64,000 nt of DNA from Sphingomonadales bacterium (GTDB lineage Bacteria; Pseudomonadota; Alphaproteobacteria; Sphingomonadales; Sphingomonadaceae), in NCBI GenBank assembly GCA_018971065.1, contig JAGWVC010000001.1:88378-152377 (forward strand), given 5' to 3'. The notes under the pieces were generated by a model, which worked only from the letters and a program-made list of their open reading frames with translations, had not been told where the DNA came from and searched no databases. This document shows, in pieces, positions 37,569 to 55,060 of this stretch (position 1 is the stretch's first letter; each line of letters starts with the position of its first letter). The position numbers and the translations under genes are program-made.

Positions 37569-38393
37569 TTAACGGAGCAGCGAGAGCACGCTCTGCTGGC
37601 TCTGGTTGGCCTGGGCGATCATCGCGCTGGAAGCCTGGCTGAGGATCTGCGCCTTCGACATCGCGGTCGATTCCGCCGAGTAGTCGGTATCGAGGATGCG
37701 GCTGCGGGCGTCGGCGAGGTTGGTCGAGTTCGAGGTCAGGTTGTTGACCGCCGAGCTGAGCTGCGATTCCGCCGCACCGAAGCCCGAGTTGGACTTGGCG
37801 ACATCCGACAGCGCCGAGTCGACCTTGCCGATCGTGGTCGTCGCGAGGGCGGCAGTCGAGACGTCGAGGGCGGTCGAGGTCAGGTTGGTGCCGTCGATGG
37901 CGTTGCCGGTCACCGTGATCGTGTCGGAGCTGTTCGCACCGGCCTGGATCACGAACGAGGTGTTGGTGCCCGAGGTGGTCGAGAACAGGGCGACGCCGTT
38001 GAACTTGGTGTTCGACAGGACCGAACCGATCTGGGTCTGCAGCGAGGTGACTTCCTGCTGCATGTTGTTGCGGTCGGAGGTCTGGTAGGTGCCCGACGAC
38101 GACTGCACGGCCAGTTCACGAACGCGCTGCAGCATGTTGGTGACTTCGTTCAGCGCGCCTTCCGCCGTCTGCGACAGCGAGATGCCGTCGTTGGCGTTGC
38201 GGACGCCCTGGTTCATGCCGTTGATCTGCGCGGTCATCGTGGTGGTGATGGCGAGGCCGGCGGCGTCGTCCTTGGCCGAGTTGATGCGCTTGCCGGTCGA
38301 CAGGCGCTGCATGGCCTGGCCCAGCATACCCGAAGCGGTGTTCGAAGCGTTGGCGGCGCGGGTGGCGGCAATATTGGTGTTGATGACAGTCAT
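37569..38393 (-). CDS. fliC: Flagellin
   Basis: 274 aa from ATG 38393, nine bases after GGGAG. The N-terminal D0/D1 helices ([18 protein letters not shown], then [19 protein letters not shown]) and the C-terminal one ending in [14 protein letters not shown] are conserved; the surface-exposed middle is short, giving one of the small alphaproteobacterial flagellins. It polymerises into the filament after export. Only one flagellin gene is in the window. It diverges from the FlbD-like activator gene; the TTGCCGG cluster lies between them. I found no correctly spaced sigma-54 site on its strand. Confidence 0.95.
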
Positions 38394-38499: not shown

Positions 38500-38579
38500 C
38501 CGGCAAGAATGTGCCGGGGCTTGCCGGAAGCCTTGCCGGCATCGCTGCCGGCAGTTGCCGCCCGGATGCGATTTGCCGG
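38500..38579. promoter_or_regulatory. Phased TTGCCGG cluster between fliC and flbD (putative enhancer)
   Basis: Seven copies or near-copies of TTGCCGG, either orientation, begin at 38500 (reverse), 38511, 38521, 38533, 38545, 38555 and 38573: steps of 10-12 bases except the last. The first two form CCGGCAAGAATGTGCCGG. The cluster lies 34-113 bases upstream of the sigma-54-like site at 38613 and about 107 bases before the flagellin start. Helical phasing next to an activator gene suggests multiple FlbD-type binding sites. Confidence 0.55.
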
Positions 38580-38612: not shown

Positions 38613-38628
38613 TGGCACGATGCGTGCA
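38613..38628 (+). promoter_or_regulatory. Sigma-54-type promoter upstream of flbD
   Basis: TGGCACGATGCGTGCA matches the -24/-12 consensus TGGCACGnnnnTTGCA except for one base, with exact spacing. It faces the FlbD-like gene starting at 38823. The rest of 38394-38822 holds the enhancer-like cluster and no gene that I can support. Confidence 0.6.
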
Positions 38629-38822: not shown

Positions 38823-40165
<1,343 letters not shown>

Positions 40166-40169
<4 letters not shown>

Positions 40170-45237: not shown

Positions 45238-45663
45238 GTGAAGGAAGAGCTGAGGAAGCTGGCGCGATTGCAGCGGCTGGAGCGGGTGCGGGCGATCGCC
45301 AAGCAGACCGCCGCCACCGAGGCCGCGCGCGCCGAAAGCACGCTGGCACAGTTGCAGGCGCTGGCGACGCGGACCGGGGCGCTGGCCGCCGACTATGCGC
45401 TGCGCAGCGATGCGCGCGACGGCGCCGACCTGTTGCGGCTGACGCGGTTTCGCAGCGGCTTGCAGGGGGTGCGCGACCGGACGCTGGCCGATGCCGCGCG
45501 CGCGCAGAATGTCGCCGACGTGCGGCAGGCCGAGCTGGCGCAGGCCGAACGCAGCCGCGCGGCGGTGGAAGACCGCGCCATCGCGCAACGGAAAGAGCTG
45601 GCCGGCAAGGCGCAGATGGCGGTGCTGGGCGCGCGAAAGGCGCTGGGCAGCGACGCGGATTAG
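45238..45663 (+). CDS. fliJ: Flagellar protein FliJ
   Basis: 141 aa from GTG 45238, six bases after fliI. All-helical, charged, without strong motifs, as FliJ is: two long coiled-coil helices (LARLQRLERVRAIAKQTA; VADVRQAELAQAERSRAAVE). It couples FliI to the export gate. Position after fliI is the main evidence. Confidence 0.82.
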   Translation: MKEELRKLARLQRLERVRAIAKQTAATEAARAESTLAQLQALATRTGALAADYALRSDARDGADLLRLTRFRSGLQGVRDRTLADAARAQNVADVRQAELAQAERSRAAVEDRAIAQRKELAGKAQMAVLGARKALGSDAD

Positions 45664-45678
45664 CTGATTGTCCGAATT

Positions 45679-45694
45679 TGGCACGAACCTTGAA
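45679..45694 (+). promoter_or_regulatory. Sigma-54-type promoter upstream of fliK
   Basis: TGGCACGAACCTTGAA matches TGGCACG-N4-TTGCA except C to A in the -12 GC. Spacing is exact. It lies in the only sizeable gap (45664-45749) between fliJ and fliK and would start the fliK-flhB operon. Confidence 0.6.
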
Positions 45695-45749: not shown

Positions 45750-47117
45750 ATGACCGCACCGCTTTCGCTGAACATGACCTCCGCCACGGCACCGGCGGCC
45801 GGCGGAATCAGCGATACCGGGGCTGCGGCGGTTGCCGGCCCGGGGTTCGACCAGGTGCTGGCCGCGCAGGCCGCACCGACCGCCGCCGATGCAGCCACTG
45901 CCGCGCCGATTGCCACCACTCTTGCCTCCGTCCTTGCCGTTGCCGGCAAATTGCCGGAAACCGGCAAGGCTTTGCCGGCAAACCTGTTGCCGGTTTTTGC
46001 CGGTGCGGCGGTGGACGCGGCACCCGACAGCGATCCTGCCGCGAAATCCGATGCCGACCAGGCCGACAGCAAGCCCGAAGCGCCGGTGGCCGATGCCGCC
46101 GCACAGCCGCTGGCGCTGCTGGCGGGCCTGCTGGCGCCGCTGAACCTGCCCGCCCCGGCCGCGAACGCCCCGGCAAAGCAGGCCGAAACCGTGCGCGCCG
46201 CCGCCGCCCAGCCCGCGCTGGTGACGCAGGCGACCGGGCAGGCCCCGCGCACCGTCGCCCCTGCCGCGCCCGCTCCTGCCGATGCCGCCGTGGTGCCGGC
46301 CGCCCTGCCGGGCCAGGTGGTGACGATGGCGGTGCTGTCGGCGGACGATTCCGCGCCCAGGGCTTCCGCCCCCACCAAGGCCCGCAACGCCGCGCAATCC
46401 CCTAAGGCCCCGGCGACGGCCGATTCAAGCTTTGCTGCGATAACGGCACCGTCTGCTTCCCCGAGTGGACAGTCAGGCGATGCCGGGCAAGGCCAACCTC
46501 CGATGGCCGACACCGCGACGTCGCCGGCGGGGTCGTTGGCGATCGCTTCCCCCGAGGCACCGCGCGATCCCGCCACCTTTGCCGCGCTGAACGCGATGCC
46601 CGCGCTGCCCGCCTCCGCCGCTGCGCCCGCGGTCACCACCGCCGCGATTTCCGCCCCGCACGACATGACCGCGCTGGTCGATCGGCTGGTCGAGGCACGG
46701 GCCGCCGCGCGCGGCTCGGCATCGGACGGCACCGTCGCCACGTCGGTGCGCCATGCCGAGTTCGGCCAGGTTTCGCTGCGCTTCGAGACCGGCGCCAATG
46801 GCCTCTCGGTGTCGATGGCCAGCAACGATCCCGGCTTCGCCCCCGCCGCGCAGGCCGCGCTGGCCGCCGCGCCGCAAGTGGCCGCATCGCAGGCCGGTGC
46901 GGGCGCCGACATGCGCCAGCAGGGCCAGTCGCAACAGGGCCAATCACAATCGCAGTCGTCGTTCGCCCAGTCGCAGGGCTGGTCGGGCAACGGCCAGCAA
47001 CAGCCGCGCCAGCAGGCGCCGGCCGCCGCCACCGGGTTCGCCGCCGCATCGCGCAGCGCGCCCGCCGCCACTTCCGGTGACGGCACCGCGCCGTCGCCCG
47101 CAGGCGTGTTCGCCTGA
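45750..47117 (+). CDS. fliK: Flagellar hook-length control protein FliK
   Basis: 455 aa, very rich in Ala and Pro, without signal peptide. The conserved C-terminal Flg_hook domain is at about 325-375 (RHAEFGQVSLRFETGANGLSV); a Gln/Ser-rich segment and Ala-rich tail follow it. FliK measures the hook and switches export specificity. Residues about 60-90 are encoded by the TTGCCGG cluster described separately, where Leu is written TTG although CTG dominates elsewhere. Confidence 0.88.
   Translation: MTAPLSLNMTSATAPAAGGISDTGAAAVAGPGFDQVLAAQAAPTAADAATAAPIATTLASVLAVAGKLPETGKALPANLLPVFAGAAVDAAPDSDPAAKSDADQADSKPEAPVADAAAQPLALLAGLLAPLNLPAPAANAPAKQAETVRAAAAQPALVTQATGQAPRTVAPAAPAPADAAVVPAALPGQVVTMAVLSADDSAPRASAPTKARNAAQSPKAPATADSSFAAITAPSASPSGQSGDAGQGQPPMADTATSPAGSLAIASPEAPRDPATFAALNAMPALPASAAAPAVTTAAISAPHDMTALVDRLVEARAAARGSASDGTVATSVRHAEFGQVSLRFETGANGLSVSMASNDPGFAPAAQAALAAAPQVAASQAGAGADMRQQGQSQQGQSQSQSSFAQSQGWSGNGQQQPRQQAPAAATGFAAASRSAPAATSGDGTAPSPAGVFA
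45940..46003. promoter_or_regulatory. Phased TTGCCGG cluster inside fliK (putative downstream enhancer)
   Basis: Six TTGCCGG sites in 64 bp begin at 45940, 45951, 45961 (reverse), 45972, 45987 and 45997, steps of 10, 11, 10, 15 and 10. Two are the full palindrome TTGCCGGCAA. The cluster lies about 250 bases downstream of the sigma-54-like site at 45679. Same motif and phasing as between fliC and flbD. Confidence 0.5.
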
Positions 47118-54457: not shown

Positions 54458-55060
54458 ATGAGCAATGCCACCAGCCTTTATCTGATCGATGGCGATTTCC
54501 GGCGCCGGGCCGCCATTTCGCACTGCCTGGCGGGCAGTGAAGTCCATGTCGAGCCGTTCGAGGACGCCAGCGAGCTCATCGCCCGCTGGCCACGCCACGG
54601 ACTGCTGCTGGTTCATGACGACGGTCGTTCGGTGGCCAACCTGCTGTCGCACATGGGCAGCTCGGGCCAATGGCTCCCGGTGATCGGCTTCTCGGAGACG
54701 CCGACGACGCGGATGGTGGTGCAATCGGTGCTGGACGGCGCGATCGACTATATCGCCTGGCCGTTCGAGCGCGACGACATCGTCAATGTTGTCACCGACG
54801 CCGAGCAGAAGGCGGAAACGCTGGGTTCGACCAAACTGCGCGAGGCGATGGCCCGCAGCCGGGTGGACCGCCTGACCAAGCGCGAGCGCGAGGTGCTGGC
54901 GGGCGTCGCCGGCGGCCTGTCCAACCGCCTGATCGGCGAGAAGCTGGCGATCAGCCCGCGCACGGTGGAGATCCACCGCGCCAACATGCTGACCAAGATG
55001 GGTGCCCACCACACCTCGGAAGCGATCCGCATCGCCATCGAGGCTTCGCTGGTGGAATGA
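54458..55060 (+). CDS. FixJ/LuxR-type response regulator-like protein
   Basis: 200 aa. The N-terminal 125 residues resemble a receiver (LYLIDGDFRRRAAI start; IGFSETPTTRMVVQSVLDGAIDYIAWPF end with the YIxxPF switch region), but the expected phospho-Asp strand reads LLLVHDDG, so the acceptor site is altered or shifted, and the usual Lys before PF is Trp. The C-terminal LuxR-type HTH is intact: LTKREREVLAGVAGGLSNR then GEKLAISPRTVEIHRANMLTKM. It stands alone after the flagellar genes with a 224-bp gap before it and may control flagellar or chemotaxis genes. Confidence 0.85.
   Translation: MSNATSLYLIDGDFRRRAAISHCLAGSEVHVEPFEDASELIARWPRHGLLLVHDDGRSVANLLSHMGSSGQWLPVIGFSETPTTRMVVQSVLDGAIDYIAWPFERDDIVNVVTDAEQKAETLGSTKLREAMARSRVDRLTKREREVLAGVAGGLSNRLIGEKLAISPRTVEIHRANMLTKMGAHHTSEAIRIAIEASLVE

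Follow-up and report, generated by a model that had tools for sequence, protein, structure and literature searches.

The fliK gene of the window, by which we mean the whole 64,000-nt stretch of Sphingomonadales DNA analysed here, contains a dense array of TTGCCG/CGGCAA half-sites around a conserved palindrome, CGGCAA-N4-TTGCCG. As judged from sequence comparisons, the array very likely serves as a transcriptional enhancer within the coding part of fliK, through which an FlbD/FlrC-like activator would act on the sigma-54 promoter at 45679–45693. The motif is under selection beyond that acting on the protein, is constantly accompanied by a sigma-54 promoter and flbD, and recurs near other flagellar sigma-54 promoters.

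The locus

The window covers a sphingomonad flagellar locus with the gene order fliC(−) / flbD-like / fliE F G H I J K L M. By FliG, the closest relative found is a Sphingomonadales MAG (87%), followed by another MAG and Novosphingobium spp. (58–69%). We use the name fliK because of synteny, the open frame lying between fliJ and fliL: the window's fliK gave no Pfam or NCBIfam match, and among 10 fliK members searched against Pfam, 9 had no match at E ≤ 1 and the remaining one had a weak match to Flg_hook (E 0.075). A gene for a LuxR/FixJ-type regulator whose receiver match is weak (54458–55060) lies directly after the fliD and fliS genes. The features considered below are as follows.

37569–38393, minus strand: fliC, flagellin gene divergent from flbD, identified by eye from its translation, with syntenic matches in relatives
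38500–38579, no strand assigned: second half-site array, in the fliC–flbD intergenic region, with a one-mismatch palindrome at 38501–38516
38613–38627, plus strand: sigma-54-like site TGGCACGATGCGTGC with one mismatch, beside the intergenic array; chance also gives such a match
38823–40169, plus strand: FlbD/FlrC-like sigma-54 activator, the proposed binder, with AAA+ (PF00158, E 3e-65) and Fis-type HTH (PF02954) domains
45238–45663, plus strand: fliJ, named by synteny; the sister clade carries palindromes at fliJ instead
45679–45693, plus strand: sigma-54 (RpoN) promoter TGGCACGAACCTTGA, 15 bp after the fliJ stop, the sole exact TGGCACGNNNNTTGM match in the window
45750–47117, plus strand: fliK, open frame between fliJ and fliL, with the array at codons ~62–85
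45934–46003, plus strand: array of TTGCCG/CGGCAA half-sites inside fliK, 9 hexamers within 80 bp
45962–45977, no strand assigned: core palindrome CGGCAAGGCTTTGCCG (CGGCAA-N4-TTGCCG), the conserved unit, sole exact copy in the window

An array of half-sites inside fliK

The six TTGCCGG sites that an earlier note on this DNA had counted in 64 bp (45940–46003) were confirmed. They start at 45940 (+), 45951 (+), 45961 (−), 45972 (+), 45987 (+), and 45997 (+), so that the steps between starts are 11, 10, 11, 15, and 10 rather than the 10, 11, 10, 15, and 10 first given. Two of the six positions are palindromic (TTGCCGGCAA), which gives 8 strand-specific matches in the 64 bp, and an extra TTGCCG hexamer (centre 45936.5) lies immediately upstream. 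The array lies within a reading frame (open from 45750 to 47117), as had been claimed, and the sigma-54-like site at 45679, proposed to be about 250 bases upstream, was measured at 261 bp before 45940.

In 200 first-order Markov simulations of the window, there were at most 3 hexamers per 80 bp, compared to 9 observed. Synonymous-codon shuffles of the window's fliK (40,000 runs) reached a maximum of 7. The array is thus genuine and far beyond chance. The locally odd codons pointed out earlier were found where expected: Leu is written TTG three times (45951, 45972, and 45987) and Lys AAA once (45948), while CTG and AAG dominate elsewhere (in the whole gene, Leu is CTG 19 times and TTG 4 times, and Lys is AAG 5 times and AAA twice). 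Over the whole window, TTGCCGG occurs 60 times against 19.1 expected, an approximately threefold excess. This excess extends beyond the two arrays.

In 15 of the 19 near fliK genes assessed, the densest 80 bp was richer in hexamers than under the synonymous null (P ≤ 0.05), and dense extra half-sites (5 to 7 hexamers per 80 bp) were present in 9 of the 18 genes other than that of the window. Between the window and locus L001, 40 of 42 bases are identical in the 14 core codons, compared to 815 of 1227 in the rest of the alignable fliK; where the two share a residue, the codon is identical in 12 of 13 cases in the core and in 156 of 222 elsewhere.

A conserved palindrome across fliK genes

The earlier note had treated tandem TTGCCGG as the unit. 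Half-site arrangements were scanned in 26 kb of the window and in 21 loci, and the tandem reading was dropped since an inverted repeat with a 4-nt spacer, CGGCAA-N4-TTGCCG, often doubled, proved to be the common unit. In the window, this core palindrome lies ~280 bp downstream of the sigma-54 site. All 20 near loci reaching the region, the window included, have the palindrome (17 exact and 3 with one mismatch); in L003, L011, L012, L019, and L021 it is located deep in fliK, at +560 to +683. No exact palindrome was found outside fliK in the 421 kb scanned, the lone "other" count coming from L013, whose fliK is cut.

A wider set consisted of 100 regions obtained via an order-level FliG search. 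These are the better-scoring of 195 genomes with FliG; 12 similar-scoring ones were skipped and the remote rest was omitted. Loci without a whole fliK (L002, L013, and L020) were left out, L013 being counted solely in the scan of half-site arrangements; from the 100 regions, L143 and L175 (no fliL) and L194 and L195 (no fliK called) were omitted. The resulting set of 19 + 96 = 115 fliK genes is somewhat redundant: L008 and L107 are apparently one genome, and L166/L167, L179/L180, and L181/L182 are near-copies.

Within the first 760 bp, 69 of the 115 genes carry the exact palindrome and 90 carry it with at most one mismatch. Upon synonymous permutation of the same genes (100 runs), the exact palindrome appeared in a mean of 1.88 genes (maximum 5) and the palindrome with at most one mismatch in a mean of 14.45 (maximum 25), i.e., a one-mismatch palindrome is expected by chance in ~14 of 115 fliK genes. 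With other spacers of 0 to 10, the exact palindrome was present in just 0 to 3 of the 115 genes, and the reversed motif gave no exact match in them at any spacer.

In one clade of the FliG tree (SH-aLRT 99; a quick LG+G4 tree with long branches), the element is present in fliK of 87 of 95 rows, 68 exact and 19 with one mismatch; four rows are without it and four are not scorable. FliG identity to the window's FliG falls to ~40% within the clade. Hits in L173, L189, and L191 lie outside the clade and are excluded from the 87. The four clade genomes that lack the palindrome despite having flbD carry copies with 2 to 3 mismatches that appear by eye to be 21 bp apart, a weak resemblance.

The palindrome is frequently paired. 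In 45 of the 87 genomes, the best site has a companion copy (at least 9 of 12) 20, 21, or 24 bp to either side, compared to 4, 0, 2, and 3 of 87 for four control sets of six offsets, the offsets 20, 21, and 24 having been chosen after pairs had been seen. Twenty-four of 46 second copies are at 20 bp, which is out of frame, and 18 are at 21 bp. The spacing therefore tracks two turns of the helix and not the codon. Tandem dimer sites on one helix face, as expected of a sigma-54 enhancer, are thereby present.

Promoter and flbD accompany the palindrome

The site at 45679 is the only exact TGGCACG-N4-TTGM match in the window; one-mismatch matches occur at the chance level (4 versus 3.99 expected). 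A sigma-54 promoter pattern is present near the fliJ/fliK junction in 85 of the 87 genomes, L016 and L099 being without it by the strict pattern. In the same 85 of 87, a candidate activator site thus lies in cis to a −24/−12 promoter, the arrangement characteristic of sigma-54 enhancers. The distance from the −12 element to the palindrome centre has a median of 261 bp (quartiles 236.5 to 301.5, range 168 to 742) and is 278 bp in the window. The −24 element at the fliK promoter is CGGCACG, not TGGCACG, in L137, L144, L147, most of L149–L169, and L172.

The flbD gene adjoins in all 68 palindrome genomes scored, and rpoN was found in 22 of 22 tested genomes. In 15 genomes flbD is adjacent, yet fliK is without the palindrome at up to one mismatch; therefore, flbD is insufficient. 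Seven regions with a called fliK and no flbD hit had no exact palindrome, and one of them, L191, had a one-mismatch copy.

In a sister clade (L178, L183, L187, L189, and L190), palindromes with at most one mismatch are located within a long open frame that occupies the fliJ position. They are mostly paired, 24 bp apart, and, in the four genomes with a promoter match, precede the promoter by 204 to 225 bp. Position independence of an enhancer would allow such a placement; alternatively, the RQ residues shared by FliJ proteins could reflect protein constraint.

The palindrome at other flagellar loci

The fliC–flbD intergenic region is the only other place in the window where near copies of the palindrome and the promoter occur together. 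Its counterpart in L004–L009 and L018 contains half-sites, several of them 11 bp apart, at near-fixed positions.

We also considered 18 further regions with palindromes elsewhere, taken from genomes among the matches listed and so not representing a whole-genome rate. The palindrome was held by 17 of them (L249 had none). In 8 of the 17, it is located 45 to 402 bp upstream of a sigma-54 match (L233, L234, L236, L240, L241, L243, L247, and L250), 8 are without such a match within 500 bp, and L244 is another fliK. Pfam neighbours include FHIPEP and SLT in L233, SLT and MotA_ExbB in L240, SLT in L243, and FlgD in L236; the flagellar context of L234, L241, L247, and L250, as well as the labels flgN-like and motA-like, were assigned by eye.

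In L233, L240, L243, and L250, the palindrome is within a small gene, flgN-like by eye, 271 to 402 bp upstream of the sigma-54 match. An SLT gene follows the flgN-like gene in L233, L240, and L243, and in L233 FHIPEP (flhA) comes next. The palindrome in this gene is a second coding-embedded site.

The candidate activator

The product of the gene at 38823–40169 has the features by which a bEBP is recognized: an AAA+ domain, the GAFTGA loop in the window, and a Fis-type HTH. Among 111 flbD rows, the sigma-54 contact loop G[AS][FY]TGA is present in 110, including the window (the exception is L015), the exact word GAFTG being missing from 35 rows. The recognition helix SERTLRYR is found in all 111 and SERTLRYRLA in 110 (the exception is L121); 20 canonical FlbD loci have SIRTLRNKL in this helix. 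The best NCBIfam match is FlbD (NF050807), at 349 bits versus the curated cut-off of 750 and over residues 89–432 only.

A search for a receiver domain in the activator returned no Pfam match, and the FlbD model aligns only from residue 89. The 100 N-terminal residues are predicted to form a compact alpha/beta fold (pLDDT mostly 75 to 90) in which no alternation of strands and helices is seen by eye; a far degenerate receiver is possible there. FliX (PF10768) was found in none of 22 relatives, while the Caulobacter control was positive. FliX has been reported in Sphingomonas sp. WG (PMC8921679), and its absence may accordingly not extend to all sphingomonads.

The nearest solved chains are those of FlrC, both by sequence and by fold search (54 to 59% identity over the AAA+ part). 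The model of the activator is poor (mean pLDDT 59, less than 50 in the AAA+ part), so the fold matches add little beyond sequence. Overall, the activator looks as if it works like FlbD/FlrC, though its score, the lack of a receiver hit, and the lack of FliX in the relatives searched set it apart from FlbD.

Probably a DNA signal rather than a peptide motif

The FliK N-terminal part might need a G[KN]xLP peptide that the DNA repeat merely encodes. Indeed, when up to one mismatch is allowed, 96 of the 113 palindrome hits are in the frame able to give xG[KN]xLP. The other 17 are in the frame that gives RQxxA, and none of the 113 uses the third frame, where a Cys would be required. In 11 genomes, paired palindromes 20 or 22 bp apart are in different frames. 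Synonymous permutations retain the peptide and yet rarely yield the DNA palindrome. The Leu of G[KN]xLP is encoded by TTG in 71 of 88 copies (CTG in 13 and CTT in 4), compared to 182 of 732 for other LP (Fisher p 1.3e-24), and the codon preceding Gly has C as its third base in 87 of 88 copies versus 197 of 341 for other G[KN]. Where the DNA spacer is free, Lys (65) and Asn (23) interchange, with any third base (AAG 47, AAA 18, AAT 14, and AAC 9). Finally, fliK is without G[KN]xLP in 9 of 87 genomes, three of which (L126, L144, and L169) have an exact palindrome.

A purely peptide-level explanation is thus quite unlikely. The earlier note had proposed that the DNA, and not only the protein, is under selection, and the synonymous-shuffle nulls and the TTG preference of the motif Leu bear this out, further backed by the use of two reading frames, the frame-breaking second copies, and the palindrome genomes that lack the peptide. 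It had also named the observation that would speak against it, relatives keeping the peptide and losing the DNA motif. Such cases are limited to one genome, L138, where the peptide is retained and the palindrome is absent, and, in part, to the 17 of 88 G[KN]xLP copies that survive with CTG or CTT. Because 96 of the 113 hits share one frame, mostly giving G[KN]xLP, and L138 keeps the peptide alone, a peptide role may coexist with the DNA role.

Proposed mechanism and alternative explanations

In the scheme we favour, dimers of the activator would bind CGGCAA-N4-TTGCCG at 45962–45977, together with the half-sites that flank it along one face of the helix, and oligomerise there. The DNA between the start and approximately +260 would loop back, the AAA+ ring would remodel the sigma-54 RNA polymerase waiting at 45679–45693, and fliK would begin to be transcribed along with the genes that follow it. 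Here, binding by the FlbD-like protein, looping, activation instead of repression, and the identity of the target operon are what we infer. The interpretation offered in the earlier note is thus supported as regards selection on DNA, enhancer function and the binding protein being deduced.

The same protein, bound in fliK, might instead repress or road-block transcription, in the manner reported for FlbD at ftr4 on fliF. Sequence alone does not distinguish activation from repression. However, transcription from a sigma-54 promoter depends on an activator, the distance of 168 to 742 bp shows variation of a kind that enhancers tolerate, and the pair located 204 to 225 bp upstream of the promoter in the sister clade is unsuited to a roadblock; negative control is therefore unlikely. 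An ordinary upstream enhancer serving a promoter farther down, at fliL or within fliK, would agree with the upstream position of the palindrome relative to its sigma-54 match elsewhere in this analysis. Yet in none of 68 genomes did the stretch from the last 400 bp of fliK to fliL contain the sigma-54 pattern, and the junction promoter is the one repeated sigma-54 match in the fliJ–fliK stretch, which makes this reading very improbable. Just as improbable is an RNA hairpin acting on translation, decay, or pausing. The palindrome could form a 6-bp stem with a tetraloop in fliK mRNA, but among 522 cells the best sites had 17 broken pairs, 2 G-U pairs, and 0 compensatory changes (these sites were picked by consensus and are biased to no change), and 53 second sites had 81 broken, 24 G-U, and 5 compensatory of 318. 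Tandem copies spaced by two helical turns and copies upstream of promoters also argue against a hairpin. The threefold excess of TTGCCGG in the window could suggest a dispersed genomic word (an uptake, modification, or repeat signal) clustering by accident. This is scarcely credible: exact palindromes number 0 to 7 per genome of the family, among genomes listed and not chosen for flagella, and both the synonymous nulls and the Markov simulation contradict it.

The enhancer reading can be extended to a dual-coding element, an activator site kept within fliK across a large clade, where the launched polymerase would cross the site and so produce a self-limiting pulse, and which would have switched promoter sides (to fliJ in the sister clade) and reading frames. 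We advance this extension tentatively, as a possibility that may well prove wrong. On the enhancer reading itself, a bacterial enhancer appears to have become fixed within protein-coding sequence over deep divergence. Overlapping regulatory and protein codes in bacteria would then have a clean natural example, CGGCAA-N4-TTGCCG would provide a ready motif for the sphingomonad flagellar regulon, and at this locus one could ask directly whether a sigma-54 promoter is limited by transcription that passes through its own enhancer. No description of an enhancer inside fliK was found in the literature searched (titles and abstract openings, thin on subscription journals).

Comparison with known systems

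The target of the Caulobacter FlbD sites ftr2 and ftr3 reportedly bears the gene name flaNQ. These two sites are 3′ enhancers (Gober and Shapiro 1992; Mullin and Newton 1993; both cited in PMC3096577), and FlbD is reported in a review to repress fliF through ftr4 (PMC3930126). The Caulobacter FlbD-ftr system and the one described here share a flagellar bEBP, a sigma-54 promoter, and an enhancer 3′ of the promoter. In contrast to Caulobacter, the activator here gave no receiver hit, FliX was found in 0 of 22 genomes, the recognition helix is SERTLRYR instead of the SIRTLRNK of the 20 canonical FlbD loci, and the enhancer lies deep inside coding sequence. In 18 canonical-FlbD genomes, the palindrome is mildly in excess (37 versus 20 for the reversed pattern, as totals irrespective of place).

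According to PMC6504787, FlrC of Vibrio typically has its sites downstream of the start, these sites still work as true enhancers after being moved upstream, and the promoter of fliKLMNOPQRflhB belongs to Class III. Downstream enhancers are common to both systems, and FlrC chains are the nearest solved structures to the activator described here. FlrC differs in being phosphorylated by FlrB, and conservation inside coding sequence is unmentioned in the passages of PMC6504787 considered. Pseudomonas FleQ also has sites downstream of RpoN sites (Jyot 2002, cited in PMC6120874); a downstream enhancer and flagellar sigma-54 promoters are shared, while the activator is another one. Sigma-54 binding sites within genes of E. 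coli are conserved (PMC4591121). They resemble the present case as conserved regulatory DNA of the sigma-54 system in genes and differ from it in being promoter sites, not activator enhancers. Overall, downstream flagellar enhancers are already known from FlbD ftr, FlrC, and FleQ, and what is new here is the deep conservation inside coding sequence.
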